From IMG/VR virus record IMGVR_UViG_3300025141_000410, positions 1-33,271 of that record: a DNA stretch of 33,271 bases; one strand, written 5' to 3'. The notes under the pieces are model-generated. The model made no database searches. It worked only from the letters and a program-made list of their open reading frames with translations, and was not told the origin of the DNA. The position numbers and the translations under genes are program-made. The DNA comes from a virus. Position 1 is the first letter of the stretch; each line of letters opens with the position of its first letter. Positions 3,551 through 33,271 of the stretch are shown here, in pieces.

Positions 3551-3817
3551 TTACTCCTTAAGAATCCCCACAATGTGATTTTCTAATACTAAATAGACGC
3601 CACCTTCGCCAAAATCTACTTCTTCGATCATATGAGACAGAACAACAACCTGTTGGCCCGGGCCAATGGGGGGTTTAACATCCGGAGAAATAGAAATAAT
3701 TCTTACTTTTTCATATTTCTCCACCTTTTGATAATCATCAGGCAGGGCAATAAAACTATTACTCTCGCGTGGTGTTCTCTCGATCAATAAATATCTATTT
3801 CGTGGCTCAAATTTCAT
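3551..3817 (-). CDS. groES: GroES-like co-chaperonin (gp31-type)
   Basis: The 88-residue product follows the GroES layout. An N-terminal strand RYLLIER is followed by a flexible loop with a hydrophobic tripeptide IAL (residues 23-25) in the place of the GroES mobile loop that docks onto GroEL. A GPGQQVVV turn resembles the GroES 'vGD.V.f' region, and the closing strand YLVLENHIVGIL matches the GroES C-terminal strand. Phage co-chaperonins such as T4 gp31 and RB49 CocO replace host GroES on host GroEL, typically for capsid protein folding. No GroEL is present here, so host GroEL would be the partner. The start is ATG with GGAGGAAAT just upstream, 11 bases after the reductase stop. T4 gp31 is longer; this size is closer to cellular GroES. 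Confidence 0.8.
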   Translation of the reverse strand: MKFEPRNRYLLIERTPRESNSFIALPDDYQKVEKYEKVRIISISPDVKPPIGPGQQVVVLSHMIEEVDFGEGGVYLVLENHIVGILKE

Positions 3818-3828
3818 ATTTCCTCCAA

Positions 3829-12381: not shown

Positions 12382-13563
12382 TTATCCTCCAACCTTCTGT
12401 AAGTTTCCAAAATTTTGACCGACACCTACGTTAACCTTGAATTTTCCGAGTGCCGTATCGGAAAAGATATCTATAATTTCGGGTATTTTTTCCTTGTCTT
12501 CTACCGAAAGGTCCAATACAATAGAATCATGGATCGGGAAAGCAACATATGATTTACATCCTTTTAAATAATTAGATACTTTTATCATTTGTCTCAAAAC
12601 ATTTTCTGCACATGTACTCTGAATGATGTAGTTGAGGGCCGTTCTTTCTTCGGATGGAATAACCTTGTTCCAAAAGGTCGTCACTTGACCCTGAGTGAAG
12701 TACTTTTGTACCACAGATTCTCTATCATATGCGAGGGTGCACAGGCGGTCATCGCTTTCTGGATTGTAAAGCCAAGCAAAAATTCTCTTTTTGGCCTCAT
12801 CTCTCGTAATTGAGCCTTGGAAAATATTCTTTATATTCCACTCATGAAGATCGCCCTCGGGCTGCCTCTCTCCCTGTAAGGAGAGAAGCGTCCTTAACTC
12901 TGCCGCGTTAAAATCAAGTTCCACAAAATAATCGTTATGAGGTTCGATCACACAGCGAAACTCTTTCTTTAGGGTTAGGATGGGGAAGCTCTTTGGGGAC
13001 GTAGTTAGACGCCCGGTCTTTGTTCCGTAGATATTAAATTTACAAGAAGGCTCGATCTTGTTTAAGTTTTGTGCGAACTTCCTATGGCCGGCCTTAAACA
13101 TAGATAGATTTTTTGTATTCAGATTGAGCCTTCGGTATTTCATGTCTTCAATGATCTCAACTAATGAAACTAGATAATCATAGTTTTTAGGCCTTTTATA
13201 ATTCTCGAAGACATGTTCACAAATTTGATTTTTAATGTGACAGAATTCCATGAGAAATTTTCTAGGAACTAAGTCGAAAAAGCAATTATTATCGAGCGAT
13301 ACGCGGCTCGTTGCGAATGACTTAATGAATGCCTTAAATTTATCGCTAATGTCTCTCCAGCGAGGCTGTAGGGCCTCCGGGCACACCTCGTCCAGGGTCT
13401 TACCCCCACAGTACAGATTGGCGTATTCGATTTGGCGACCTTTTAGAAATCCCGAGTATGACCAAGTATGAGATAGGCCTGTTGGCAGCCTCTCACCGAA
13501 AACGAGGTCATCTAGATATAGGCCGATGCAATCTTTCTTGTCATCAAGTGTCTGAAAAAGCAA
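12382..13563 (-). CDS. polA: Compact family A DNA polymerase (polymerase domain only)
   Basis: The 393 residues cover just a Pol I-type palm and fingers with a reduced thumb. TGRLTTS (183-189) matches the TGRLSS segment. Motif A is ELDFNAAELR with Asp217. Motif B keeps the E. coli Pol I spacing exactly: Arg254, Lys258, Phe262 and Tyr266, with Asn where Pol I has Gly. NYIIQSTCAENV matches the motif before the last palm strand. Motif C is HDS (345-347), where most family A enzymes have HDE. No 3'-5' exonuclease domain is present and no exonuclease-like gene precedes it. The start is TTG at 13563, with AGGA six bases upstream and no in-frame ATG nearby. A promoter lies 155-183 bases upstream, inside the previous gene. 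It would be the replicative polymerase working with the UvsX, SSB and helicase genes downstream, unless another polymerase exists outside the window. Confidence 0.88.
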   Translation of the reverse strand: MLFQTLDDKKDCIGLYLDDLVFGERLPTGLSHTWSYSGFLKGRQIEYANLYCGGKTLDEVCPEALQPRWRDISDKFKAFIKSFATSRVSLDNNCFFDLVPRKFLMEFCHIKNQICEHVFENYKRPKNYDYLVSLVEIIEDMKYRRLNLNTKNLSMFKAGHRKFAQNLNKIEPSCKFNIYGTKTGRLTTSPKSFPILTLKKEFRCVIEPHNDYFVELDFNAAELRTLLSLQGERQPEGDLHEWNIKNIFQGSITRDEAKKRIFAWLYNPESDDRLCTLAYDRESVVQKYFTQGQVTTFWNKVIPSEERTALNYIIQSTCAENVLRQMIKVSNYLKGCKSYVAFPIHDSIVLDLSVEDKEKIPEIIDIFSDTALGKFKVNVGVGQNFGNLQKVGG

Positions 13564-13576
13564 AAATAGTCCTGTG

Positions 13577-14884
13577 TTATTTATAAGATTTAACTATGTC
13601 TCTTATATATTCGTCGAATTCTTCAAAGGGGAGGGGATCTTGGGTCCTATATTTCTCCCTGCTTGCGAGATAATAATAAGATCCCTCTGTTGATGGAATG
13701 TCTTGGAATACTTTATTAATATAACTCAAAGATCGCCGAATGTCAACATATTTCTCATAATCTAACGATCTTTTTTTAATTTTGTCCAATTGGTCGCTAT
13801 CAAAGTCAAGATTCTTTTCTTGATTTTTTAGATCAATATAAAATTTTAGCCAGTACCTGTCTGTGTATTTGTTGTCAAATTCTTCTTTTTTGTATTTTTG
13901 TCTAACGATCCTCTCTCTCTTTAGGCAACCACTAGCTTCTATGGTTTCTTTGATGAACGACGGAAAGCGGTTTCTGTAATCCCTGTATGATGAGAAGAAT
14001 AAATTTTTTAATATTGTAAGATCTTGCAGATAGGCCCTCTGAAAGGCTTGATCAAAAAAGGAAAACAGGCCGTTCCAGCTGGGTTTTGCCGTGACGACTT
14101 CGGAGGCTAAATTGAACACGAGCCTCCACGGGGCGTTATAATCTACGAAAAACCCATATTTTTCGGCCATGCCAATATAATAGGGGAAAAGCGCGTGGTC
14201 AGCAAACTCCAGCTTATCGCTATTTTTTGAAAAATCTAAATCTGCTATTTCGATGCATAGGCCGCTATTTCTGATATTTGAACGGTAAATTAAACAAAAA
14301 GAAGAAAAATTCACGGCGCCCATTTGAGTCGACAAGATTAACAAATGTTCTCGAAAGATCTTTACGAAGCTTTCAAAATCTACAATCTCCTTTGCCTTCT
14401 TTTGGGCCTGGACATAGGCCCCGAAAGAGCCTTTCAAATAATTCTCAACCCACGAATTATAGGATACATTTATATCCTCGAATGCCTTGACTGCCTTCAT
14501 GTCTGAAATATGAGGAATATCTGGCGGTATTTTTCCAGATGCAACGTCTATTGAAATTTCCTCTCTCATGGAATTAAACGCCGATGTCACGAAGGCAAGT
14601 GCGTGTTGATTTTCAGCGTCGTATATGGGCGCAAGGCCTAGCTTTTTTGGAGTTACAGCATAAAAATCCGTGTCAATTCTGCCGTATAAATAATTTTCAA
14701 ATTTTTGGAAATTCCTAATCGGCATTAAGTGAGAATCGCCGGTAAAGGACGGAGTATCAGAATATGCTAACTCCCTGAAAAGCACGTTGCTATAGAAACT
14801 TCTGCGGCTGCCAGTTTTATTTGTGGCTTGAAGCGCTGTTTTTCTATTAAATTTTTTAATTCTTTTTTCGAAATCAGAGGCCAT
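13577..14884 (-). CDS. Unrecognised 435-residue protein, probably structural
   Basis: The product is rich in aromatic and charged residues, with a basic N-terminus (FEKRIKKFNRK) and no signal peptide, membrane helix or repeats. I do not recognise a domain. It follows the 1216-residue hub candidate by 16 bases, with AAAGGAG before its ATG, and so belongs to the tail/baseplate transcription unit. The last part of its coding sequence contains the promoter for the polymerase gene. Position suggests a baseplate or virion component; the sequence itself does not show which. Being the last gene before the replication block, it could also be a regulatory or packaging protein. Confidence 0.8.
   Translation of the reverse strand: MASDFEKRIKKFNRKTALQATNKTGSRRSFYSNVLFRELAYSDTPSFTGDSHLMPIRNFQKFENYLYGRIDTDFYAVTPKKLGLAPIYDAENQHALAFVTSAFNSMREEISIDVASGKIPPDIPHISDMKAVKAFEDINVSYNSWVENYLKGSFGAYVQAQKKAKEIVDFESFVKIFREHLLILSTQMGAVNFSSFCLIYRSNIRNSGLCIEIADLDFSKNSDKLEFADHALFPYYIGMAEKYGFFVDYNAPWRLVFNLASEVVTAKPSWNGLFSFFDQAFQRAYLQDLTILKNLFFSSYRDYRNRFPSFIKETIEASGCLKRERIVRQKYKKEEFDNKYTDRYWLKFYIDLKNQEKNLDFDSDQLDKIKKRSLDYEKYVDIRRSLSYINKVFQDIPSTEGSYYYLASREKYRTQDPLPFEEFDEYIRDIVKSYK
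13718..13746 (-). promoter_or_regulatory. Sigma70-type promoter for the polymerase unit
   Basis: Minus strand: TTGACA (13741-13746), exact 17-base spacer, TATATT (13718-13723). It lies inside the end of the 435-residue gene and encodes YVDIRRSLSYI there. The predicted start near 13711 is about 150 bases before the polymerase TTG. It lets the polymerase, tubulin-like and SH3-like genes be transcribed without the late tail genes. Confidence 0.72.
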
Positions 14885-19905: not shown

Positions 19906-22377
19906 TTATGCTATTGAGGGTGTTCCACTGTTTGTATTGAGCGGCTTAGCGGCGGCTTCTTGTACATCCGCCGTGAAGTATCTTTTAAATAGTGGGTCAC
20001 ACTTAATTTCTACAACCACTTTTTGTGTGGCCGGGGATTGACTTGCGGCGGTCGATGTTGAGCCTGCACCATGGGCTTTGTCGACCACGGCCTTTCCTGT
20101 CCCAACGAGGGCTGCTCCCGGAATGAGAGCGAGGGCGGTAAGCGGGTTTAATAACATTGCTCCGGAAGTCAACATTGCTCCCGCGCCTATCATTCCCATG
20201 CCCGCTCCAATTTTAAGAATATTGTCGGCTGTTTCGGAAGTAACTTCATTCATTCTTTGGAACAAATTAGCCATGCTTGCAATTTTTTCGCTGTCGATAG
20301 AATAAAGTGCTAAGCCAACGAGGCTGATTGCACCAGCCAGAATTATCATAGCGTAACTTCCCATCGCTGCCACGGTTAGGGCCCCTATGAGGCTCCACAG
20401 CCCAACAACAGCTAGACCCATCTTTTCTGGAGTCAAAACATTAAGAAATCCCGTCAGAGAATTAACCAGAAGACTCACCCCAAAGCCGGCCATCAGGGCA
20501 GCAAATCCCACAGCTAAAATAACTCCAACGGCGCCGGCGACGAGGGCGGCTTGCGGGCCTGCAATGAGGGCACTAACAGAACCTATCATTGTGGCCATTG
20601 CAAAACCAAAGGCGACGATGGCGACGGAGGATGCAAGGATTTGCCCTGCGTTCATTTTTGCGAACTCTGCGACAAGGAAAGAAATACCATATGCTGCCAT
20701 CGCGATGGAGGCGCCCAATGCTAGGAGTACGAGGCTTAGAGTAAGGAGGCCTGATTTTCCGTCTTTAGCTGCCTTCGAGACATTCTTTATGCCCTTGGCG
20801 ATGGATTTTGAAGATTTCTCCACTGCTTTGCCACCTTTTTTTGCGGCCGGCGTGAAGAGGCCGAAAGCTGTGGCGACTCCCTTTATGGCGGCGCCGAGGG
20901 GACCGAAGAAGAAGCCTGTCACTTTTAAAAGCGGTGCCAGAGCTAAAAGCACGAGAATCGATTTTTGAGCGAGGGGATTGAGTTCTTGCCACCATTGGGC
21001 CACGCCTTTAAGGAGCGGGATTATCCACTGCATTTGAAGTGCGAATGTTCGCATCAACTGGTTCATTTCGTCTTGAAAATTATTAAATTCTTTTGACTGG
21101 GCTGCTAATTCCTGGATTTCTGCTGAAGACATATTCGCTTCCGTAGCCATTCCGTCGAAATTACCAGCCATTACTAGCGCCAACTCGTTGACGTCTGCCA
21201 AGCCGGCTGCGGAGGCGATTGCTTTTCTTTCGTAATAGGACATTTGATCAAAGCTTTTTCCTGAATCTCTCAAGCCATCGCTTAATTTCTTCATTCTTTC
21301 TGTCGGATCTGTCTCCATTACCATTTCCATAGAATTTAAGAATGGACCTCCGAGGAGGGCGTTTAGCTTTCCTACAGATTCTGCTGCTCCCTCAAATGTA
21401 TCGAATTGTTCTGTAATATTTAGTAATTGCTCGACTTCCATGTTGGCGTTTCGGGCGGCGATTGATAATTTCTTGAATGTCTTTCCTGCCTGTTTTCCGA
21501 AAGCTGCGAGCTTAGGGCCGGCGGACTTAAATTGATCTGCCATTTCAGCAGGAGGCATGCCCACCTCTTGAGCTAGTGAAAACAGTTCTCTCTGATATTT
21601 GGTGGACTCTGTGACACCCATGCCCAGAGTGGCTGTCATGAATTGTATATTGCCAGTTGTAGTGTCGGCCGAGACTCCAAATTTATCCAAGAGCGCTGTC
21701 GTGTCCGCAATATCAGCGCGGTTGACTTTGGAAATTTTGTTGAGGCCTTTTATATTTTTAACCATAGACGTCATTGATTCGTTGGCTATGTCCATAGATA
21801 CGCCGTGTTTATTCATGCGATCTTCGAGAGAAACAAGCTCGGAGCCATATATTTTCGTGGCGCCGGTTTGTTGATTAAAAGAAACCAGAGCGTCATCTTG
21901 TGCTTTTGCTAAAGACCACGTCGCTTGAGCGAATTTCAAGGACATGCCATATGCAAAGTTTTGTGCGGAGAATACTTCGCCGAACTTGTTTTTCAGGGCT
22001 GAAAGACCCTCTTCTTGCTTGAGCATTGCGGCGACAGAGCCAAGCATAGAATCTTCGAATTTCTTATTTAGGCCGATCATGCCGCCTAGATCTTCTGCTA
22101 TCTTTTCGCCGGCTTTAATTGAATCTTTCTTGACCTTATTTAGCTCTTTTTGGGCGATGATTTGTTCTCGGAGTTGCTTGAGTTTTTCGTCCGAGTGCGG
22201 CTCCTCAAGCTTCATTATCCTAAGCTTTTCTTGCATTAAGGCGATTTGGTCATCTAATTTATCGCCTAGATCATCATAGGACTGTGCAAGGCGTTCGTTG
22301 ATGTCAGCTTCTCGCTCTCTGGCGTCGGCTAGCCTTTTCGCGTTTAATTCTGCGTTTTTTTCTTCATCACCTGCCAT
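19906..22377 (-). CDS. Tail tape measure protein
   Basis: The protein has 823 residues. The first 150 are charged heptad-like helix (coiled coil). A long helical middle is followed by a run of hydrophobic segments from about residue 470 to 700 (for example SILVLLALAPLLKVTGFFF and LLTLSLVLLALGASIAMAAY), typical of tape measures whose C-terminal part inserts into the host inner membrane on ejection. Small-residue repeats (Ala/Gly) dominate. It is the longest helical protein between tube and baseplate genes, where the tape measure is expected. Length sets tail length; 823 residues would imply a tail of roughly 120 nm if the usual 1.5 A per residue holds. The C-terminal 60 residues are polar. It starts at ATG 22377 with AGGGAT upstream. 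Confidence 0.88.
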   Translation of the reverse strand: MAGDEEKNAELNAKRLADAREREADINERLAQSYDDLGDKLDDQIALMQEKLRIMKLEEPHSDEKLKQLREQIIAQKELNKVKKDSIKAGEKIAEDLGGMIGLNKKFEDSMLGSVAAMLKQEEGLSALKNKFGEVFSAQNFAYGMSLKFAQATWSLAKAQDDALVSFNQQTGATKIYGSELVSLEDRMNKHGVSMDIANESMTSMVKNIKGLNKISKVNRADIADTTALLDKFGVSADTTTGNIQFMTATLGMGVTESTKYQRELFSLAQEVGMPPAEMADQFKSAGPKLAAFGKQAGKTFKKLSIAARNANMEVEQLLNITEQFDTFEGAAESVGKLNALLGGPFLNSMEMVMETDPTERMKKLSDGLRDSGKSFDQMSYYERKAIASAAGLADVNELALVMAGNFDGMATEANMSSAEIQELAAQSKEFNNFQDEMNQLMRTFALQMQWIIPLLKGVAQWWQELNPLAQKSILVLLALAPLLKVTGFFFGPLGAAIKGVATAFGLFTPAAKKGGKAVEKSSKSIAKGIKNVSKAAKDGKSGLLTLSLVLLALGASIAMAAYGISFLVAEFAKMNAGQILASSVAIVAFGFAMATMIGSVSALIAGPQAALVAGAVGVILAVGFAALMAGFGVSLLVNSLTGFLNVLTPEKMGLAVVGLWSLIGALTVAAMGSYAMIILAGAISLVGLALYSIDSEKIASMANLFQRMNEVTSETADNILKIGAGMGMIGAGAMLTSGAMLLNPLTALALIPGAALVGTGKAVVDKAHGAGSTSTAASQSPATQKVVVEIKCDPLFKRYFTADVQEAAAKPLNTNSGTPSIA

Positions 22378-22390
22378 TAATTAAAAATCC

Positions 22391-22732
22391 CTATTTAAAC
22401 GGCCACTTAATGCCCGTCTTTTTTTCGAAAGCATCTGTGGCCTTCTTAAGTCGTGATTTCTGCTTATATGTTTTGGCATCATTTAAACCATATTGCTTTG
22501 CTGTCTCGATGTATTTCTTTTCATTTCCGACTGCTTTCGCAAACGCCTTGATGTCTCCCGACTTACCACGAATTCCTCCGGCGATGTGCGGAATACCAAA
22601 CATGTGCTTAATGATATTTTCAACCCAAAAACCCATCATTCTCAAAAAACTTTCGTTCAATTGATCATTCTTTTTTAATTCTTCGAGATCAATTATGACC
22701 TCAACAATTTCGCCTTCATTTAGAGATTCCAT
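22391..22732 (-). CDS. Small tail-region protein, unknown
   Basis: This is a 113-residue protein with an acidic N-terminus (NEGEIVEVIIDLEELKKND), a central helix FLRMMGFWVENIIKHMFG, a glycine-rich turn GIPHIAGGIRG, and a basic C-terminal half (KTYKQKSRLKKATDAFEKK). It lies directly before the tape measure (13 bases) and is the first gene after a terminator and an ACTATTTA promoter, so it opens a transcription unit. Genes in this place are often tail assembly factors. I do not recognise the family. Confidence 0.75.
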   Translation of the reverse strand: MESLNEGEIVEVIIDLEELKKNDQLNESFLRMMGFWVENIIKHMFGIPHIAGGIRGKSGDIKAFAKAVGNEKKYIETAKQYGLNDAKTYKQKSRLKKATDAFEKKTGIKWPFK

Positions 22733-22764: not shown

Positions 22765-22796
22765 TAATAAAAAGAAGCCGGGTTTACCGGCTTCTT
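22765..22796 (-). terminator. Intrinsic terminator after the gp26-like unit
   Basis: On the minus strand AAGAAGCCGG-TAAAC-CCGGCTTCTT forms a 10-bp perfect stem with a 5-base loop, followed by TTTATTATAA. The stop codon TAA of the 22784-23050 frame lies in the loop. It separates the sheath/tube/hub-assembly unit from the tape-measure unit. Confidence 0.85.
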
Positions 22797-23050
22797 GTAC
22801 TTTTACCCGTCGAGCGTGATTTCTTTGCTGATCTTTCAGCAGCTTCATTTTCTTTTTCCATCTGCTTAATCAATTTTTCCAAAAACCAACGTCTAATTGT
22901 AATTGGCAAGTTATAGGCTTCCGTAAAAGACCAGCCGCCATAATATTTTAAAACAAAAAATTCTTCGTATACATTCTCGATGTATTTATCACTTAGGCCA
23001 AAAAAAGTCCGTAGTAAACGGCACCTCCATTTGATCCGTTTCGTAGTCAC
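22784..23050 (-). CDS. Second frame of the gp26-like gene, probably reached by frameshift
   Basis: The frame is open for 88 codons from a GTG at 23050 and overlaps the gp26-like gene by 62 bases. The first 15 residues (MTTKRIKWRCRLLRT) look like out-of-frame translation. From GLSDKYIENVYEEFFVLKYY onward it looks like a real protein: a compact helical segment with GGWSFTEAYNLPITIRRWFL and then a charged tail ending in Lys/Arg/Ser. That protein-like part begins exactly at the T7 run (23000-23006). No ATG and only a weak ribosome binding site exist for independent start. A +1 (or -2) shift would add 71 residues to the gp26-like product (352 or 353 in total). Independent start at GTG is the alternative. 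It is in the place where tail assembly chaperones (lambda G/GT, P2 E/E', Mu) use frameshifts; T4 has gp51 here. Confidence 0.65.
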   Translation of the reverse strand: MTTKRIKWRCRLLRTFFGLSDKYIENVYEEFFVLKYYGGWSFTEAYNLPITIRRWFLEKLIKQMEKENEAAERSAKKSRSTGKSTRSR

Positions 23051-23843
23051 AACTTTCGCAAGTGAAACTTTGAGCTAAATCAACGTTGGGTACGATTTTT
23101 TCATAGGCCTCTCTAAGATATCTGGCGTCTCTTGCCGGCATATTATCAATAAAAGATTTTATTGTTACGTTGTCGATTCTTTCATTCACTGACACAATCA
23201 TTAAATTAAGTTGGTCTGTTAACGAAGATTCTGGTAGATTTCTCTTTTTCTTTTCTGCCGATGATTGTAGTAGGTATTTTTCGTCTTTTCCTGTGAAAAG
23301 CCTCACCTCTACATTCACTTTTGTTGCTGGAGTTTTTATAATAAATGTCCCTCCAGACTTTTCGGAGATCTCATATTCTTCGAAATCAGTGCCCGAATTG
23401 ATATTTCCAGACTCCAAATCAAAGGAGAACTTATTGGTTGTGGCGCAGACTGGGCATGTTACCTGGGTATCATAGCTTGGGCCGTAGCCAGTTACTCTGG
23501 CGCCAATAAGAATTGCATTTTTATCCCCCACATATAGGGAATCTAAATTGATTCTTTTATCTACAAGGATATTCTGCAAGAACCTATCAAGAGCTATGCC
23601 CTTCTTAAGGAGCGCCCTTGATGTCAAAATATCTTCATCTTTCGCCGTCATATGACGAATTTCCACCACACTTTCGTTGTGCAATGGATGATCTTCTGAA
23701 TAATAGCGGCCTTCTGTTGGAAGTTCGACAAATTCTGTTGGTGTCGAAAAATCAAGAGGGGCCATGTTTGGCGGAAGGGATGAATCCTCCGCCTTATTTT
23801 TACTTTCGGCGCCTCCGGTGCGCCGAGAATTATTTCTAGCCAA
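22989..23843 (-). CDS. gp26-like baseplate hub assembly / tail assembly protein (T4_baseplate family)
   Basis: The 284-residue protein matches the T4_baseplate (gp26) pattern: FVELPTEGRYYSEDHPLH, VEIRHMTAKDEDILTSRALL, VGDKNAILIGARVTGYG, then a zinc-type pair CPVC (near 128-131) with a second pair CESC near 262-265, ending EVPFTTDFFWPK. In T4 gp26 is needed to build the baseplate hub but is not found in the finished baseplate, so an assembly chaperone role is likely. The ATG is at 23843, after the tube gene. The end TTT TTT TGG sits on a run of seven T where a second frame takes over. It starts 20 bases after the tube stop. Confidence 0.82.
   Translation of the reverse strand: MARNNSRRTGGAESKNKAEDSSLPPNMAPLDFSTPTEFVELPTEGRYYSEDHPLHNESVVEIRHMTAKDEDILTSRALLKKGIALDRFLQNILVDKRINLDSLYVGDKNAILIGARVTGYGPSYDTQVTCPVCATTNKFSFDLESGNINSGTDFEEYEISEKSGGTFIIKTPATKVNVEVRLFTGKDEKYLLQSSAEKKKRNLPESSLTDQLNLMIVSVNERIDNVTIKSFIDNMPARDARYLREAYEKIVPNVDLAQSFTCESCDYETDQMEVPFTTDFFWPK
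23000..23006 (-). other. Putative slippery heptamer T7
   Basis: On the minus strand GAC TTT TTT TGG CCT AAG TGA (gp26-like frame) can be read after a one-base forward slip as TTT TTT GGC CTA AGT GAT. Phe-tRNA can re-pair in any frame on the T run, and the zero-frame stop is only three codons after it. The protein-like part of the second frame begins here. Confidence 0.6.
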
Positions 23844-23863: not shown

Positions 23864-24451
23864 TTAGCTACTGCCGGGATTAAAGAAAGTATTGCCATCA
23901 ACGTCTTTTCCATCAGGACGCTTTGCTCCAGTTTCGGAGGAAAGCTGGGTTTCGATTATCGCCCAGTCATAACGGATTGTTAAAGTAATCTCTGTCATAT
24001 CATCACTTGAATAATCCAGATCTCCATATGTAACGCCTGTAATAAACGGGTTCCACAGGGTCCAGGTTTCAAGCGCGTTTCCAACAGAATCGATCTGAGA
24101 GATAACTACTGATCCCATTGCTGCGACTGATGCCTGCTTTGAAATGGTTGTTGTATCTGTCACGTCTTTGGGGGGATTGTATCCGCCTGCTCTGATGATT
24201 GCGGCTGTATTAATTGCTGCATCTGGACTAACTGGGTCAACCAAGGTGACTGTCACGTCTGCCCACTCAGCTCGGCCTGGATAATAGAACTTATGGTTCA
24301 AAAAATTGTGTTCAACTGTTGAGATTGAAATTTCTGGCTTTTTACAGGTTTTGGCGTACCAAGTTGCCCCGTTAGGCATTCTACCTATATCAACCAAAAA
24401 TCTATATGCTCTTTTCGGATCTTCAAATTGTGCATCTGTCCAAAACGCCAT
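23864..24451 (-). CDS. Tail tube protein (gp19-like)
   Basis: This 195-residue major tube subunit has the gp19 layout: FEDPKRAYRFLVDIG at the start, WYAKTCKKPEISISTVEHNF, then KFYYPGRAEWADVTVTLVDP, all typical of T4-type tube proteins, and a final strand MTEITLTIRYDWAII. Tube proteins stack as hexamers inside the sheath. It follows the sheath gene, as usual. The ATG has AAAAGGGAG upstream, and an ACTATTTAG motif lies 36 bases before the ATG, so it can be transcribed on its own at high level. Confidence 0.92.
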   Translation of the reverse strand: MAFWTDAQFEDPKRAYRFLVDIGRMPNGATWYAKTCKKPEISISTVEHNFLNHKFYYPGRAEWADVTVTLVDPVSPDAAINTAAIIRAGGYNPPKDVTDTTTISKQASVAAMGSVVISQIDSVGNALETWTLWNPFITGVTYGDLDYSSDDMTEITLTIRYDWAIIETQLSSETGAKRPDGKDVDGNTFFNPGSS

Positions 24452-24518: not shown

Positions 24519-27500
24519 TTAATCATCAAAAGATGCTCCCGTTCTGGTGATTACAAAATCAACTGCGATAAACTCGATTGCTCTAGCCGGCTTGAGGAAG
24601 ATTTTAGCATACATAATGTTTTGATCTACCAAGTCTGGCGTTGTGGTGGTGTCGTCTAAGATAACCCTCCATTCGCTCAATCCCAAACGAGACTGAACGC
24701 TGGCTAAAAATGGCCTAACTTCTCCCAAGAACCTATTCCAAGTTACTTGGACATTTTGATCAAACAAAATTCCTGAAGAAATTCTTGAGACCTGTTTCTT
24801 AATGTAGATCAGTAGTCGACGAACATTAATTCGGTCGAGCGCGGAGCGAGTAACTTGAAGCGTTTTTTGTCCGAATACGACCAGGCCTTCCGATGGGAAA
24901 GAGGCGATTGGATTAATATTTGCTTCATATAGTTTATCTCTATCTTTAGAGGTAAGTCTCTTAGTGATGTTGGTTACTGGCCATCCGGCTGAACCGTCTG
25001 TTAAGCCACCGCGATTGAATCCTGCGGGTGCAAACCAAACCTCTGATTTAGCCTGCGAAGAGGCCAGAGTACCCAGAGCAACTACAGATGGAGGAGCCCA
25101 TAACAAGTTGTTGGAGATGGTGTCTAGCAGCTGAACCCATGGGTAGTAGGTGCATGCGTAAGAGGAGTTGATCCCCCTGTCTCTCAGGCCGTCGACACAT
25201 TCAGAAATTGTGAATTGGTTTCTTTGTTCGAATGTGTTAGTCGAGTCGGTGAACGGAGTGTATACATCCGGCAAATCGATGATGGCGAGTGCATCACCTC
25301 TGTCCTCGCATGTATCTATCACATGTTGAGTTAAAGTTGAATTGGTCACACCTGGGATCGTCACGATATTGCATTCGACGAATTCTGGATCCTTTATTGT
25401 GTCCACAGCTCTCTTGATGGAGTTATAAGCATAGTTTGCAGTATCTAAGTCGCCGCCAGCGCTGAGAATTCCATTTCTAAACGGCTCTGCCTCTGTAATG
25501 TCGAGACCATCAAAGCCACCATAAAGAGGTGCTACAATTTTGTCGTAGCCGGCGCTCAAGATTGACTGCCAAGATCCCTGGGCCGTGGCCGAGTTGCCAT
25601 TCTTCCTCGCATCCTGCTTCCAGAATGATGTGGCCGAGCCACTAGTTACGACGTCGTCAAGAGTTACGGTCCAGCTATATTCCACCAAGTCATCGCTGAT
25701 GCCCGCCAAGGTATCTTCGGAGGTTACCCCATCGGGGCGTCTCCAGAGGTAATCCCCCCAAGAAGAATCTTTTCTGGATGAATTTCTGGAAATTGTTGAC
25801 ATTGGCCCGAAGCACGCATCAGTTGGATCGGCGAGGCCGCCGTCAGAGGCAGAAAGTCTCAAAAGTTGTTTTGGAAAGTCAAGCTGCAATCCGGTAACTG
25901 TACAGGTACCGTCGCCCAACCAAATTCCGTCGGCTGGACAAATCTCTCCGGCTGGCGCTGTGGCACCCGGTGTCGAACCAGAGGCCAACACAAAGGCGTT
26001 AGCTGGGATTGCACCAGATTTGGTGTAATTGATTGTTTTAAATCTGAGAGGACCAGTGACACCGAAAGGAAGCATTTTTGGATTAAGACCTGAAACATCT
26101 GGATTCATGTCCACTCTAATATACTTTGACTTGTTAGCGTATTGGCCGTATTGTCTCAGTACTCTCTGTGTATAATCAAAGCTATAATAGGTATCTCCGA
26201 TGACTCTTCCTATGAAGTTTTCAGAGGCGGGGTTTAGGTTTACGTTTGTCCACCTTTCCACTATCTGTATAACATTATCTCTATCGGAGGCTGCTCTAAC
26301 TACAATACTAAAAGAGCCATATGGGTCCGACTTGTTTGTAGATGCCTTTATATCCTGAACTGCAATCTTAAGATTGTTCTGGATCCATCGTCCGCCGTCT
26401 AGCGAAACGAACCGGAATAATTTTGTCATGGCTGAAGGATCAAAGGCTGCGAAGTCGTTCGATAAATCTTGAGAAAAGAAATAACCGGTTTTGGCTGTCT
26501 GAAAGTCGATGCCCTTGTAATCGTCTCTATCTAGGGAACCTGATGCCAAGGGGAGCAAGACTGCTCGGGATGACCTATCAAGGCCGCCGAGAGCTTCTTC
26601 AACATCTGTCTCGAAAGACTCTCCGAGCCAATATAGGTTTTCTCCGTTTTTAAGGGTCGTTGGGTTGACGAATGCATCGTTGGTTAATTGTGGATTTGTA
26701 TTCAGAACACTCCGAATATTCAAATCACTGTCTCTATCAAAATTAAATGCAGTTGAAAGCGTGGGGCTTCCACCTGGGGTGGTTGCCCCAGTTGTGCTCG
26801 CGATTGCGAAACCTAGTCCCGCAACAGCATCGCCTCCCGTAATATCAATTATTGATGACGTTCCGTCTTTGGAAAGCGTTGTAAGGACAAGGTCTGGATC
26901 TGCATTTTGTGTTACAGTTAAGCCAGCGATTGCTGCCTCGATGACCGCTTTTGCCTCTGCAAAAGTTACCTGTGCATTGTTGGCAACGTTTCCTGCGCCG
27001 TTTGCAACACCAATCGAGATTCCGGTGTCTGTCAATGTGCCGGCGGTGCCGGCCGTTACGTTAACTTCCGATGAAGATCCGGCAGAATCTGAACGAATAT
27101 CAACCGCGCCGGCGTTAAGAAGGGCGCCGCCTCCAGTTAAAGTGGCATTAATTTTATCAGCCACCAAGAGGGCGCTGTTTTCTGAGCCGTCAAAGGTGAT
27201 GATCTGGCCGGCGCCATTATCTATTTCTATCGTAATCGTTCCGGCGGATCCGAGGAATGCGCCGGCGCCGCCGGCTTTGACTGCTTGAGTGGCTGTCGTA
27301 AAGGTCGCTGTTGCAGGTGCGCCGCTGTCGACCTCGATGGTAATATCGTTGGCTCCAGCAGATGCGTCCCAACCCGGCGCGCCGGCAGTGGTACCCTCGA
27401 CCGAGGCGGCCGTGGTCGTGGATTGATCCTGCGTATTAAAAATGTTTAACTTAAATTGTGAATTTGCGCCTTCGGATTCAATTGCGGCACTGTTGCCTAC

Positions 27501-28049
27501 AAAAGACGCCTCGCCGCCTGAAATGGTCTTGAGTACTTCGCCACCTAGAGCAATGGAGCCCGAGTTTACATATATAACGGCACCAAGAGTACCTGTCGCG
27601 TTTATGGCTGCTGAAGAACTTGGGAATACAAAGATTCCATATGCTCCACCTGCCGTAGACGGAGAGCGAGTTGCATCAGTTCTCCATCCGGAGAGGGCGA
27701 TACCAGCTCCGTCATTCTCAGGGTTGTCCTCTCCTAAGAGGCGTACCATCGTAATTGGGCCGACATCGGCCTTCAAATAGGCCATGGCGGCGTAAGCTGC
27801 ATATGTTGGTGCTGTGAGATTTCCATCTCTCCAAACATCCCCAGATGGTCCTTCGCCGGGAATGGGATTTCCAAACACCTGAACGAATTCTGAAGGAGAG
27901 CTTACAGAGACTGGGCGCATGGTGGGGCCCATTCTAGTCCTTCCGATAACAACTGGGCCAACTGCCTGCTTGATCGCAGGGAGTTGTGAATTGTCGACTT
28001 CACTCAGAAAAATACCCGGTGAAACAAATTTAAATTTCTTAACTGACAT
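24519..28049 (-). CDS. Tail sheath protein with a large inserted domain
   Basis: The 1176-residue protein is almost twice the size of T4 gp18 (659). The N-terminus (FVSPGIFLSEVDNSQLP, VVIGRTRMGPTMRPV) and the C-terminus (IKKQVSRISSGILFDQNVQV, FVITRTGASF) are clearly of the contractile-sheath family. Residues about 130-440 form an extra region rich in Gly, Ala, Ser and Thr. It contains repeated strand patterns such as ITIEIDNGAGQIITFDG and VDIRSDSAGSSSEVNVTAGT, which recall the inserted Flagellin-IN type modules of flagellar hook and phage sheath proteins. This part would sit on the outside of the tail and may stick to the cell surface or matrix. It starts at ATG 28049 with AAGGAG upstream, with an ACTATTTA motif 49 bases before the ATG. 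Confidence 0.92.
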   Translation of the reverse strand: MSVKKFKFVSPGIFLSEVDNSQLPAIKQAVGPVVIGRTRMGPTMRPVSVSSPSEFVQVFGNPIPGEGPSGDVWRDGNLTAPTYAAYAAMAYLKADVGPITMVRLLGEDNPENDGAGIALSGWRTDATRSPSTAGGAYGIFVFPSSSAAINATGTLGAVIYVNSGSIALGGEVLKTISGGEASFVGNSAAIESEGANSQFKLNIFNTQDQSTTTAASVEGTTAGAPGWDASAGANDITIEVDSGAPATATFTTATQAVKAGGAGAFLGSAGTITIEIDNGAGQIITFDGSENSALLVADKINATLTGGGALLNAGAVDIRSDSAGSSSEVNVTAGTAGTLTDTGISIGVANGAGNVANNAQVTFAEAKAVIEAAIAGLTVTQNADPDLVLTTLSKDGTSSIIDITGGDAVAGLGFAIASTTGATTPGGSPTLSTAFNFDRDSDLNIRSVLNTNPQLTNDAFVNPTTLKNGENLYWLGESFETDVEEALGGLDRSSRAVLLPLASGSLDRDDYKGIDFQTAKTGYFFSQDLSNDFAAFDPSAMTKLFRFVSLDGGRWIQNNLKIAVQDIKASTNKSDPYGSFSIVVRAASDRDNVIQIVERWTNVNLNPASENFIGRVIGDTYYSFDYTQRVLRQYGQYANKSKYIRVDMNPDVSGLNPKMLPFGVTGPLRFKTINYTKSGAIPANAFVLASGSTPGATAPAGEICPADGIWLGDGTCTVTGLQLDFPKQLLRLSASDGGLADPTDACFGPMSTISRNSSRKDSSWGDYLWRRPDGVTSEDTLAGISDDLVEYSWTVTLDDVVTSGSATSFWKQDARKNGNSATAQGSWQSILSAGYDKIVAPLYGGFDGLDITEAEPFRNGILSAGGDLDTANYAYNSIKRAVDTIKDPEFVECNIVTIPGVTNSTLTQHVIDTCEDRGDALAIIDLPDVYTPFTDSTNTFEQRNQFTISECVDGLRDRGINSSYACTYYPWVQLLDTISNNLLWAPPSVVALGTLASSQAKSEVWFAPAGFNRGGLTDGSAGWPVTNITKRLTSKDRDKLYEANINPIASFPSEGLVVFGQKTLQVTRSALDRINVRRLLIYIKKQVSRISSGILFDQNVQVTWNRFLGEVRPFLASVQSRLGLSEWRVILDDTTTTPDLVDQNIMYAKIFLKPARAIEFIAVDFVITRTGASFDD

Positions 28050-28637: not shown

Positions 28638-31600
28638 TTACGATTGCAAATCGTATGCTTTAATGCCAAACAGGCTAATAACGTCGCCTTCTGCGAGGGC
28701 GATGTTCGTAGTGAAGCCATAGATGAGGCCGCCAGCGTCAGCCAACCAACTGATTTCGGTGTATGGATTCATAACCAGACCGTTAAGAGTGGCATGAATT
28801 ATTTCACTCATTGGATCTAGGCCTGCGCCAGCGACGAAGTTGTACGACACTCCAATGGCCACATCGGATGGGAGAGGGGGCATGAAGGCCACCTGGAACC
28901 TATCGTGAAGTGCAACAAGGTCAGCCTTCATATTTGTAACGTCTAGGTCATTCGATGTTTCATAATCTGAAAGATCAGTAGCTACGTCGAGGACGGCTTG
29001 GTTGTTGGAAATGACATAAGCGTCATATTCAGCTTCAAGTGCAGCGCGTAAACCAATTTCAGCAGCCAGAGCAGCGTCATTGGAGACTTCATAGGCAGCT
29101 TCTTTCGCTTCTTGAGTGTCAAGGGCGGCTTGAATTCCAACTTCGGCAGCGGAGGCGCGAGCGGTTTCAGCAGCCAGAGCTGCGTCATTGGAGACTTCAT
29201 AGGCAGCTTCTTTCGCTTCTTGAGTGTCAAGAGCGGCTTGAAGGCCAGCGTCACCGGCGGCGAACTCAGAGCGAACTGCGTTACGGTCGATCAATGCAAG
29301 AGCTTCTTGAGTAGCGATGTCACCATCAATCTCGGCAGAAATCACACCATGAAGTGCAGTATCAGCAGCAGCGAAGTCAATGCGGATTGAAGAATCTTCA
29401 GCGTCGAGGAGACCCATCTTGGTGCTATAAGCACTCTTATGGCTGGTCAATTCAGTCTGAATAGCCTGCTCTCTGATAACTGATGCTGAGAAAGCTGAGA
29501 CGTCAGCAGCAGCGAAGTCAATGCGGATTGAAGAATCTTCAGCGTCGAGGAGACCCATCTTGGTGCCATAAGCTGTGAGATGTGTCGCGAGTGCCGCTTC
29601 GTCAGCAGCGTTTGCGCCTTGAATAGATACGATATCAGAAATAATATCACTATCAGCCAACTCATAAGCAGCAACCAATTCTACCAACTGATCAAGGTCA
29701 ACATCCGAACCTGAAAGAAGGGCATCAATGCGACCCCTTTCGACTCCGACAGCAGCGTCATTGGAGACTTCATAGGCAGCTTCTTTCGCTTCTTGAGTGT
29801 CAAGAGCGGCTTGAAGGCCAGCTTCGACTCCCATTGCACGAGCAATTTCAGTTGCCATTGCAGCGTCTGCGACAACTTTAGCGTCAACGACTTCCTGGTC
29901 GTGAACGACCTTTGCGTCAGCGATTTCGGTGCGAATTAAAGCGCGGTCCGTGTCGCCATCAAGCTCATTTCCATCAACGTCAGTTTGAAGAGCGGCTAGG
30001 GCAGCGTCATTGGAGACTTCATAGGCAGCTTCTTTCGCTTCTTGAGTGTCAAGAGCGGCTTGAAGGCCAGCTTCGACTCCCATTGCACGAGTTTCTTCGG
30101 CAGCCAGAGCTGCGTCATTGGAGACTTCATATGCAGCTTCCTTCGCTTCTTGAGTGTCAAGGGCGGCTTGAAGGCCAGCTTCGACTCCCATTGCACGAGT
30201 TTCTTCGGCAGCCAGGGCAGCGTCGGCAATGACTTTTGCATCAACGATAGCTTGGTCTGCAAGAACTTTTGCAGCTGCGATGGAAGAGTCGCGATTTGAC
30301 TCATTGAGAGTGCGAGCAGCGAGAGCAAATGCTCTTTCTGTAGCGTCACCGTCAGAGCGGTCTTGTTGCTCTTGAAGCATTTCACCGTCAGCGACGACTT
30401 TAGCAGCAGCAATTTCTGCGTCAGAAGTTGCTTTCGCAGCTGCGATTGCAGCGTCACGGGCTGTTTCGTTGGCAGTACGAGCAGCGAGAGCGAAAGCTCT
30501 TTCGTCTGCATCGCCTTGAGCGCGGTCAGATTGCTCTTTAGCCATTTCAGCGTCTGCGACAACTTTAGCGTCAACGATAGCTTGGTCTGCAAGAACTTTT
30601 GCAGCTGCGATGGAAGAGTCGCGATTTGACTCATTGAGAGTGCGAGCAGCGAGAGCAAATGCTCTTTCATCCGCATCGCCTTGAGCGCGGTTAGCAATTT
30701 CATTCGTGATTGAAGAAATAATGTCGGTATCAGCCAACTCATAAGCAGCAACCAATTCTACCAACTGATCAAGGTCAACAGTTGAGCCTGAAAGAAGGGC
30801 GTCAATGCGACCCCTTTCGACTCCGACAGCAGCGTCATTGGAGACTTCATAGGCAGCTTCTTTCGCTTCTTGAGTGTCAAGAGCGGCTTGAAGGCCGGTT
30901 TCGACTCCCATTGCACGAGCAATTTCAGCAGCCAGAGCAGCGTCATTGGAGACTTCATATGCAGCTTCTTTCGCTTCTTGAGCGTCAAGATCGATTTGAA
31001 GGCCTTCTTCGGCGTTCCTTGCACGAGCTTCTTCGGTGCCAATAAGAACTTCCATTTCCATAATATCAGTATCTAATTTTGCTTTGTTGACGATCATTGC
31101 GCCAACACCGGAGCCACGGACGCCATAATCGAGCGTGTCGAGACCGATGCCAATAAATTCAAGCGGCAAACCATCAACGGAGAGGGATCCCGGGGCTGCT
31201 CCAGCGGAAACAGCGAGGGATGGAGTTGCGAACTCGCCTGAGAGTTCAGCGTCATATTCATCATGCGATTGCATTCTCACCTGATCGTGATGAATTCTTG
31301 TGCGGACGACTGTGGCGCCGCCACCGCCGCCGTTACCGGCGCCGCTGTCAAAGGCTACAATTGCGACTGATGCGCTACCTACCACTGGCGCAAAGCCTGG
31401 ATTCAAGTCGAAAGTCAGCTCAACAAGGTTGCCTGGACTTTCTGATTCTGCGTCTCCAAGTTCGGTTTCGAGCGTGGCGACTACCTGCGCAGTGAGGACG
31501 ACTGTTTCTACAGGGAAATCGGTGCCATTGAGCGTGTATCCGAGGATTATGTCTGAGGCGCCGGGGCTAGACGGTGTCTGAAAAGAGCCATCGCCGTATT

Positions 31601-33271
31601 CGTCTGTGAAGCGGATTTTCATGCCATCGTCATCCATGGTTTCGTGGATAATCGCGCTGTCAAAGACAAAGCGCGCTACATCCCCCTGTACGAACGCGGG
31701 GGCTCCTGCATACGGCACGCCTGTGAGTGTTTCTAGAAGCACTCCGGCGCTGGAGTAGATTTCTACTTTGGGTTCGGACGGGTAGGCGTCAATTTGCATC
31801 CCGCCTAATTCTACATATAAATTTGTCATATTATTGTTTTCTCCTTGGGTTTCCCCATTGTTATTATATAATTCTATAACCTCATTTTCTGAAAGTGCTC
31901 GGTCATAGATAAGCACTTGATCTATATCGCCGTTCAACCACCCAGAAGGGTTGGTGGAGTTAGCGCTGTATGAACCAATTCTCACTGGAACATCTGAAAG
32001 GAAAGAACCTGTGATGTTTGTCAAGGTACCCTCCAGCTGGCCATCCACATAAAAATGAAGACTTGGGCCGCTCCTAACGTATGTTAACATGTGCCATTGA
32101 CCGTCATTGATGACAGTTTCGGCATAAACAGCAGGTTGTGTTGCATCTGCACCCTGTTTGCTTCTCCAGCCGACTGTCACATTCCCGGCGGCTTGAATAT
32201 TCGAGGCTAAATAGGATTTGGAGCTTCCGCCGTATGCTTCTCGCGCCATGTAAACCATGCCTTCTGTCGCCTCTGTTCTGACCCACATTGAAAATGAGGC
32301 ATCTGAACCCCAGATGTCGCCCAAGCTTTGGTCTAAGAGGATTTCTCCGCTTGTGCCATTAAGTTGAGCGTATGATCTACCAGCGGCTGTCTCAAATGTT
32401 GCACCATTTACTGTTCCATCGTTCGATCCAATAGAATCAGTTGCATCAGTGTCAAGAACATATTTTGCAACCAATCCGTCTTCGAGATCCAGTGTGGAAG
32501 AATGAAGTTCTGTCACTTCGGAGGCACTTAGTGCCCTGTTCCAGATGTGTAAATCATCCATTAAGCCACGGACGTGAATGTTGGGGTATGTATCTGCACC
32601 AACTCTATATGGAGCACTGCTGTTCCAAGGAACATAAGTAAGGGCACCGGAATTATCCAATGTGCCGTCTAGATAGACAGCGACAGTAGAGCTATCCCAT
32701 GTAACCGTGACCAAATTCCACTGTCCTGCAACAAGTGCATCAGTTGATGTAATTGATTGTACACTTGCCGAGTTACTGTTATAATGCCGAACTCTGACGT
32801 TGCCAGATGTCGGCAGAACATCGATCATGAACGACGGCATATCTGACCCGTGAACATGATCAGATATTAATGTTTGATAACTATCGAAATTATCAGGTTT
32901 CACCCAAACACTGAATGTGTATGGCCCGCTTGAGCCGATGTTGAGGCTTTCAGGGATTTGTGCATAGTCTCCATGAGCCGACAGGCGGAGCACATCGCGG
33001 TTGTTGGTGGTCTCAAAAGAAGCCCCACCGTGAGATGTACCATCGTTGGATCCAACTGAGTCAGTAACATCAGTGTCAAGAGCATATTTTGCAACAAGGC
33101 CGTCTGTTAGAGCTGGCGGAACATATGGTTCTGCTCCTGCTGCATGTAGAGTTGTGACTTCGGCATCTGAAAGCTGTCTATCCCAGATTCTTAAATCATC
33201 CATCGATCCGTCAAGATACTCACCATACTCCGCATAGACAGAACCGATTCTCATGCCGGATCCAGCACTAA
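28638..33271 (-). CDS. Tail fibre with LamG domains and coiled-coil repeats (5' end outside window)
   Basis: The frame is open to the window edge. The first visible ATG (33254) lies in the middle of a LamG fold (RIGSVYAEYG then MDDLRIWDRQLS), so the true start is upstream. Counting from that ATG, a LamG-like (concanavalin-type) domain covers about 49-258 and another about 260-470, each ending in the MDDLHIWNRALS-type strand. These often bind sugars. A beta-rich part follows (about 480-720) with a Gly-rich turn (SGAGNGGGGG). A repeat array covers about 730-1405, in which QEAKEAAYEVSNDAA occurs seven times and three longer repeats are interleaved. This is a likely trimeric coiled-coil shaft. 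The C-terminal 130 residues form a beta-rich end (FGIKAYDLQS at the stop). It should recognise the host surface. A strong terminator follows. Confidence 0.88.
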   Translation of the reverse strand, partial: SAGSGMRIGSVYAEYGEYLDGSMDDLRIWDRQLSDAEVTTLHAAGAEPYVPPALTDGLVAKYALDTDVTDSVGSNDGTSHGGASFETTNNRDVLRLSAHGDYAQIPESLNIGSSGPYTFSVWVKPDNFDSYQTLISDHVHGSDMPSFMIDVLPTSGNVRVRHYNSNSASVQSITSTDALVAGQWNLVTVTWDSSTVAVYLDGTLDNSGALTYVPWNSSAPYRVGADTYPNIHVRGLMDDLHIWNRALSASEVTELHSSTLDLEDGLVAKYVLDTDATDSIGSNDGTVNGATFETAAGRSYAQLNGTSGEILLDQSLGDIWGSDASFSMWVRTEATEGMVYMAREAYGGSSKSYLASNIQAAGNVTVGWRSKQGADATQPAVYAETVINDGQWHMLTYVRSGPSLHFYVDGQLEGTLTNITGSFLSDVPVRIGSYSANSTNPSGWLNGDIDQVLIYDRALSENEVIELYNNNGETQGENNNMTNLYVELGGMQIDAYPSEPKVEIYSSAGVLLETLTGVPYAGAPAFVQGDVARFVFDSAIIHETMDDDGMKIRFTDEYGDGSFQTPSSPGASDIILGYTLNGTDFPVETVVLTAQVVATLETELGDAESESPGNLVELTFDLNPGFAPVVGSASVAIVAFDSGAGNGGGGGATVVRTRIHHDQVRMQSHDEYDAELSGEFATPSLAVSAGAAPGSLSVDGLPLEFIGIGLDTLDYGVRGSGVGAMIVNKAKLDTDIMEMEVLIGTEEARARNAEEGLQIDLDAQEAKEAAYEVSNDAALAAEIARAMGVETGLQAALDTQEAKEAAYEVSNDAAVGVERGRIDALLSGSTVDLDQLVELVAAYELADTDIISSITNEIANRAQGDADERAFALAARTLNESNRDSSIAAAKVLADQAIVDAKVVADAEMAKEQSDRAQGDADERAFALAARTANETARDAAIAAAKATSDAEIAAAKVVADGEMLQEQQDRSDGDATERAFALAARTLNESNRDSSIAAAKVLADQAIVDAKVIADAALAAEETRAMGVEAGLQAALDTQEAKEAAYEVSNDAALAAEETRAMGVEAGLQAALDTQEAKEAAYEVSNDAALAALQTDVDGNELDGDTDRALIRTEIADAKVVHDQEVVDAKVVADAAMATEIARAMGVEAGLQAALDTQEAKEAAYEVSNDAAVGVERGRIDALLSGSDVDLDQLVELVAAYELADSDIISDIVSIQGANAADEAALATHLTAYGTKMGLLDAEDSSIRIDFAAADVSAFSASVIREQAIQTELTSHKSAYSTKMGLLDAEDSSIRIDFAAADTALHGVISAEIDGDIATQEALALIDRNAVRSEFAAGDAGLQAALDTQEAKEAAYEVSNDAALAAETARASAAEVGIQAALDTQEAKEAAYEVSNDAALAAEIGLRAALEAEYDAYVISNNQAVLDVATDLSDYETSNDLDVTNMKADLVALHDRFQVAFMPPLPSDVAIGVSYNFVAGAGLDPMSEIIHATLNGLVMNPYTEISWLADAGGLIYGFTTNIALAEGDVISLFGIKAYDLQS
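29073..31000 (-). repeat. Internal repeat array of the tail fibre
   Basis: Seven copies of a roughly 50-base unit encoding QEAKEAAYEVSNDAA begin (plus coordinates) near 29073, 29182, 29750, 30003, 30112, 30831 and 30940, nearly identical at DNA level. Interleaved are three copies of a roughly 50-residue unit with ERAFALAARTLNESNRDSSI, two copies of GRIDALLSGSxVDLDQLVEL and two of KMGLLDAEDSSIRIDFAAAD. Near-identity in DNA, not only in protein, points to recent duplication or gene conversion. Confidence 0.9.

Follow-up and report, generated by a model that had tools for sequence, protein, structure and literature searches.

The window, a 33,271-nucleotide stretch of viral DNA, carries a group of tail genes on its minus strand, in the order sheath, tail tube, gp26-like gene (ORF1), second frame (ORF2), a 113-aa ORF and tape measure. 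The same order, with or without the small ORF, was found in homologous phages. The relevant features are, in the direction of transcription:

23864..24451, minus strand: tail tube protein (gp19-like), sub-threshold match to PF06841 (E=2.4e-5).
22989..23843, minus strand: ORF1, gp26-like, putative short "G-like" product of 284 aa, PF12322 and phrog_150.
23843-23841, minus strand: TTG start codon of ORF1, with GAGGTGA upstream.
23004..23027, core 23024-23007, minus strand: upstream hairpin adjoining the slip codon, dG -7.8 kcal/mol.
23000..23006, minus strand: T7 run and proposed slip site TTT TTT T(GG), the point of the phase switch; TTY YTT TGG in 117/117 unique junctions.
23003-23001, minus strand: proposed P-site TTT, with slip to the TTT at 23002-23000 and GGC (22999-22997) as next codon.
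22989..22991, minus strand: stop codon TGA of ORF1; the TGG codon begins 9 nt before it.
22784..22999, minus strand: ORF2 past the shift, a 71-aa DUF6760-like (PF20546) helical domain with third-position variation, putative "T-like" extension.
22772..22796, minus strand: strong intrinsic-terminator-like hairpin overlapping the end of ORF2 and preceding the 113-aa ORF and the tape measure gene, dG -16.2 kcal/mol, z -6.1.
22391..22732, minus strand: 113-aa ORF without a family match, between ORF2 and the tape measure gene.
19906..22377, minus strand: probable tape measure protein of 823 aa, assigned by position and by annotation in homologous phages.

ORF1 matched PF12322 (T4_baseplate) with E=5.6e-15 and 56.1 bits (curated cut-off 24.5) and phrog_150 with E=2.4e-18. 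Its 3' end reads GAC TTT TTT TGG CCT AAG TGA on the minus strand. The frame of ORF2 is open from a GTG at 23050 to the stop codon at 22786-22784, lies in the +1 register (equivalent to -2) with respect to ORF1 and overlaps it by 62 nt. Upstream of the slip site it contains no ATG, and its only possible start is the GTG at 23050, which lacks a good Shine-Dalgarno sequence. With a +1 shift, the product would have 281 + 71 = 352 aa. The sequence, frames and lengths at this junction are as described in the initial annotation, which had proposed a programmed frameshift in the gp26-like gene. The arrangement is that of the G/GT type: between the tail tube and tape measure genes lie two overlapping ORFs that a conserved putative shift site connects, here with the 113-aa ORF as an extra element before the tape measure.

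Several other minus-strand genes of the window were annotated. The tail sheath protein (24519-28049) has 1176 residues, of which only residues 883-1168 match sheath domains, and it therefore contains a large extra N-terminal or inserted region. The 1538-aa protein encoded at 28638-33254, with laminin-G/ConA-like domains followed by long degenerate repeats, is probably a fibre or adhesin. A B12-dependent ribonucleotide reductase-like protein (PF02867, PF21995) is encoded at 3829-6057. The segments 12382-13563 and 13577-14884 contain the C-terminal part of a family A DNA polymerase (PF00476, 8.6e-14) in a short ORF with a TTG start, preceded by a 435-aa ORF without a family match; the polymerase of this phage, whose tail is T4-like, may be split or unusual.

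In order to compare the junction across homologues, IMG/VR was scanned with each ORF. This yielded approximately 160 loci, of which 156 were usable; one contig, seen twice (L019/L161), was left out because of an indel in ORF1. The usable loci comprised 117 distinct junctions, from which 100 representatives at ≤90% identity were taken. The two frames stand in the +1 relation in all 156 loci. The slip sequence is TTT TTT TGG in 105 of the distinct junctions, TTC TTT TGG in nine and TTT CTT TGG in three, and the stop codon of ORF1 follows the start of TGG by 9 or 12 nt in 117/117. The P-site codon is never TTC in these junctions, compared to 27% TTC among the other Phe codons of the same genes. 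An in-frame TTY-YTT-T occurs in 100/100 representative junctions and only three times among 27,233 other codons of these genes; since the sequences are related, such counts do not represent independent events. The junction is well beyond chance, and it combines a conserved +1 overlap with a P-site codon that can re-pair in the +1 frame.

Three further scans, based on a family alignment, on Flavobacterium phage immuto and on Microcystis phage Mel-JY01, gave 238 loci with a readable ORF1 stop. The ORF2 profile detected a relative in the +1 frame at 236 of them (E<1e-3). A fourth scan with SP-15 as query returned only SP-15 itself. TTT CTT TGG is found in 19/40 representatives of the Flavobacterium group. 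Three others contain TTT CTA TGG; this sequence is compatible only with slippage at TTT-C, and the +1 move must there fall one codon earlier (TTT to TTC). A hidden ORF2 in the +1 frame was found in the cultured phages Mel-JY01, immuto, SP-15, LIS04, RM378 and GXN1 and in a 484-kb uncultured phage; apart from Mel-JY01 and immuto, these distant cases were assigned by visual inspection of frames and motifs. In the GenBank records of immuto, SP-15, LIS04 and GXN1, ORF2 is missing or another small ORF is annotated in its place, in the wrong frame. Among bacterial genomes, a single MAG contig was recovered. It also carries a gp26 relative and is probably a phage.

The frame change itself is visible in the pattern of substitutions. 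Among the 100 representatives, variation falls on third codon positions, those of frame 0 up to the slip site and those of frame +1 from the first GGC onwards, whereas frame +1 upstream of the slip shows no protein-like conservation. Twenty-four of the 100 have no ATG, GTG or TTG in frame two upstream of the slip, 19 have a frame-two stop codon within 15 nt upstream of it, and 84 have no start with a Shine-Dalgarno-like element in this frame. ORF2 is therefore probably read by ribosomes arriving from ORF1. These sequences establish both the change of frame and its place, and the second frame becomes protein-like at the T run, as the initial annotation had stated. The homologue comparison thus lends strong support to programmed frameshifting from the gp26-like gene into the second frame.

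The same data bear on the possibility that ORF2 is a separate gene, translationally coupled to ORF1 and expressed from an internal start such as the GTG at 23050 or another weak start codon. This GTG is present in the window, ORF2 of Mel-JY01 is annotated with a TTG start, and at many loci an ATG, GTG or TTG lies further upstream in frame two, where some separate initiation is possible. However, no start codon is conserved, the upstream frame-two codons lack protein-like conservation, and an internal start leaves the invariant TTY YTT TGG unexplained. A second frame with its own ATG and a good ribosome binding site had been named beforehand as evidence against a frameshift. Within the +1 clades, T run and frame relation are both retained, and no conserved frame-two start or ribosome binding site was found. 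In some homologues ORF2 does have an ATG of its own near the end of ORF1 (62 unique cyanophage-type junctions, and also P-SSM2 and 121Q), but there it lies in a different register. In 121Q (L169, 2205-2414) and in a 595-kb uncultured phage (L164), a small ORF after gp26 overlaps the stop codon as TAATG in the third frame, which is a separate-start version of the arrangement. For the group studied here, a separately initiated ORF2 is considered unlikely.

Given a frameshift, its direction has to be deduced, as the initial annotation had left it at +1 or -2. Mu uses a -2 shift; P2, for which -2 had likewise been given, uses -1. A Mu-like -2 slippage of the ribosome on the T run would lead to the same register, and the T7 run allows re-pairing in most sequences. 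The variants TTC TTT TGG (9/117) and TTT CTT TGG (3/117, and 19/40 in the Flavobacterium group) discriminate between the two moves. In both, the P-site tRNA can pair again on TTT after moving by +1, whereas a -2 move meets mismatches. In the CUU-U variant the +1 move is that of prfB. On the 3' side of the slip, most synonymous sites vary freely, and no clear structure beyond that of synonymous recodings was found; the absence of such a structure also counts against -2. The register proposed in the initial annotation holds, and the ambiguity in its sign can be removed: by elimination, the direction can be called +1 rather than -2, the latter being quite improbable.

Slippage of RNA polymerase on the T7 run, giving mixed mRNAs with one base lost or two gained, would also suit a homopolymer. 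Yet variants with just three to four consecutive T keep the register and the conservation, and neither the codon-framed selection nor the 5' hairpin described below is expected under polymerase slippage, which makes this explanation very improbable. A sequencing or assembly error, to which homopolymers are prone, or a decayed gene is refuted by the recurrence of the same junction in more than 300 contigs and several cultured phages, including variants without a homopolymer.

In addition to the slip site, the RNA directly upstream of it is under selection. The initial annotation had not noted this upstream hairpin, nor the DUF6760-like identity of the second domain or the relation to T4 gp26 and gp51 (see below). 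Synonymous sites are strongly constrained from -30 to -7 upstream of the slip, and the codons used there deviate from the background: GAG in 77/79 cases versus 36%, CCG in 67/100 versus 13%, GCG in 32/47 versus 14% and GAC in 59/61 versus 31%. In the window this segment can form the hairpin GAGGU[G]CCGU-UUACU-ACGGACUUU (-7.8 kcal/mol). The mean hairpin stability in the representatives is -5.39 kcal/mol compared to -1.34 kcal/mol after synonymous recoding, and the hairpin is more stable than recoded versions in 93/100; this excess is limited to the last ~70 nt of ORF1. Pairs were counted in a ten-pair and in a six-pair version. In the ten-pair version, pairing is present in 82% of cells, compared to at most 60% for slid controls. 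It shows 14 double changes versus 4.4 in shuffles, and most of these replace GC by AU at a single pair. In immuto-type phages the corresponding position is occupied by a hairpin with a different sequence (GATTCC TATC GGGGTC; GGG in 25/38 versus 6%), whose stability exceeds that of recoded versions in 30/40. The same is true of 35/56 in the Mel-JY01 group, where about a third of the loci show no such excess. Conservation thus exceeds the needs of the protein, both in synonymous constraint and in hairpin stability, as expected for a stimulator in cis. The sequence GGAGGT was considered as a Shine-Dalgarno stimulator and rejected: it lies ~19 nt from the P codon, which is too far, and is better read as the 5' arm of the hairpin. 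On 70S ribosomes, +1 shifting at CUUUGA has been shown to increase when a hairpin is placed against the E site (Huang et al., PMC6321510). We infer that the hairpin may play this role in the present gene.

Related systems differ from this one in direction, stimulator or product. They include the chaperone genes lambda G/GT, SPP1 17.5/17.5* and P2 E/E', which shift by -1 on X XXY YYZ; the window has a +1 shift site YTT T with a 5' hairpin, in protein family PF12322. Nearest among known cases are the HF1-group haloarchaeal myoviruses (HSTV-2, HF1/HF2), for which a +1 chaperone shift at TTT-CGC has been predicted in the two CDS between tail tube and tape measure (PMC7230728). These viruses have archaeal hosts, no hairpin is described there, and HF2 gave no match to PF12322. 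E. coli prfB shares the YTT U slip (CUU U) and an mRNA duplex against the E site. In contrast to the window, it has a stop codon in the A site instead of TGG, an SD:anti-SD duplex instead of an mRNA hairpin, and autoregulation instead of a product ratio as its role; instead of the prfB-type Shine-Dalgarno sequence 3 nt upstream, the window has GGAGGT ~19 nt upstream, as part of the hairpin. The reporters of PMC6321510 likewise have a hairpin juxtaposed to the E site, which there stimulates +1 shifting, but they were designed with a 12-bp stem, whereas the hairpin of the window group is natural, with 6-10 pairs and some covariation. SPP1 gp17.1* and Listeria phage PSA also have +1 shifts in phage structural genes; the slip of gp17.1* is CCC-U, and the products are structural proteins (in SPP1 the tail tube) and not chaperones. 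A published shift in a gp26-type gene was not found in a search of mostly openly available papers.

The extension encoded by ORF2 has a conserved peptide with third-position variation. In the window it matches DUF6760 (PF20546) with 7e-6 and 26.4 bits, just under the curated cut-off of 27; with E≤0.1, 25/25 members match this family. The predicted structure of ORF2 consists of three helices (pLDDT 84), and that of ORF1 has a pLDDT of 88. A fold search of both models against the PDB gave no significant match, the known tail chaperone fold of HK97 (2ob9) appearing at E=2.2; a PDB sequence search with the ORF1 profile gave nothing, and no paper on DUF6760 was found among those searched. The gene occupies the same place as the chaperone genes of lambda. 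By position and homology, the 352-aa product is probably a GT-like tail chaperone and the gp26-like protein its G-like counterpart. In lambda, G and GT bind the tape measure and GT recruits the tube protein (PMC5009743). Frameshifting of tail chaperones has been called conserved except in T4 (PMC5009743).

The reading to which we assign a probability of about 0.87 is that one gene gives rise to two proteins by a +1 slip aided by a 5' hairpin, and that these form a G/GT-like chaperone pair. Most ribosomes would reach the TGA and produce the 284-aa gp26-like protein. A fraction would pause with peptidyl-tRNA-Phe on the second TTT and TGG in the A site. The hairpin would refold on leaving the ribosome, press against the E site and push the ribosome forward, taking the role of the internal Shine-Dalgarno duplex in prfB. 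The tRNA would then move one base forward, from TTT to TTT, with GGC as the next codon, and the shifted ribosomes would complete the 352-aa protein with its helical C-terminal extension. In the assembly of the contractile tail, the short form would act like G and the long form like GT; the common domain would handle the tape measure and the extension would recruit the tube protein. The occurrence and frequency of the shift, its stimulation by the hairpin and the chaperone roles are inferred.

This reading can be extended to T4, which has two genes and no frameshift. Both T4 gp26 and gp51 belong to PF12322 (8e-65 and 2e-53) and are paralogues, gp51 having an additional C-terminal domain; in the T4 sequence used (L171) they are encoded at 3803-4429 on the minus and 4480-5229 on the plus strand. 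Both are hub assembly chaperones (PMC3004832). A direct profile match from marine ORF2 to T4 gp51 was not found, and the direct comparison with gp51/phrog_634 (baseplate hub assembly catalyst) is weak (0.036 in 2/25 members). The marine ORF2 is linked to gp51 solely via the cyanophages. The alignment of the marine with the cyanophage long form covers 266 columns and continues across the shift site (E=4e-9, a single comparison). For ORF2 alone the value is 6e-4, better than 20 column-shuffled controls, and the marine ORF2 profile matches cyanophage ORF2 with 1e-6. The profile of the cyanophage second domain in turn matches the C-terminus of gp51 (3e-7) and not gp26; phrog_634 matches cyanophage ORF2 with 6e-28 and the C-terminal part of gp51 with 1e-23, and gp51 spans nearly all of phrog_150. 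By this transitive link, the short form appears to correspond to T4 gp26 and the long form to gp51.

The cyanophage genes themselves (L428-L507, and L417, which is P-SSM2) end with NNT TTT TTC NNN stop. In P-SSM2-type gp26 genes TTT TTC precedes the last sense codon in 62/62 distinct junctions, compared to only 15% TTC among the other Phe codons. They carry a conserved -1 heptamer, U UUU UUC, the same one that has been proposed for the chaperone of SPP1 (PMC6316719). Their ORF2 lies in the -1 frame, with a conserved ATG five bases downstream of the first base of the ORF1 stop codon. P-SSM2 and many relatives also contain GGAGGG/GGAGGGT ~9 nt upstream. A -1 frameshift is likely in cyanophage gp26, and it is possible that ORF2 is expressed by this shift, by re-initiation, or by both.

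On comparative grounds, a single gene thus appears to supply a marine T4-like phage and hundreds of its relatives with two versions of a tail-building helper protein, a task that in T4 may fall to the separate genes 26 and 51. We give roughly even odds to the wider proposal that the gp26 family ancestrally produced a short and a long chaperone by frameshifting, that T4 is derived and has fixed the two as genes 26 (short) and 51 (long), and that at the +1 sites described here an upstream hairpin drives +1 shifting, naturally and in many phages. The family would then combine +1 shifts with a 5' hairpin in this group, immuto and Mel-JY01, +1 shifts in SP-15 and RM378, and -1 shifts on U UUU UUC in the cyanophages. 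T4-type contractile tails would follow lambda in relying on two chaperone products, something that a major review denies to T4, and the old puzzle of gp26 and gp51 would become testable. Moreover, hundreds of natural +1 sites with a 5' hairpin would be at hand for a mechanism known mainly from designed reporters.
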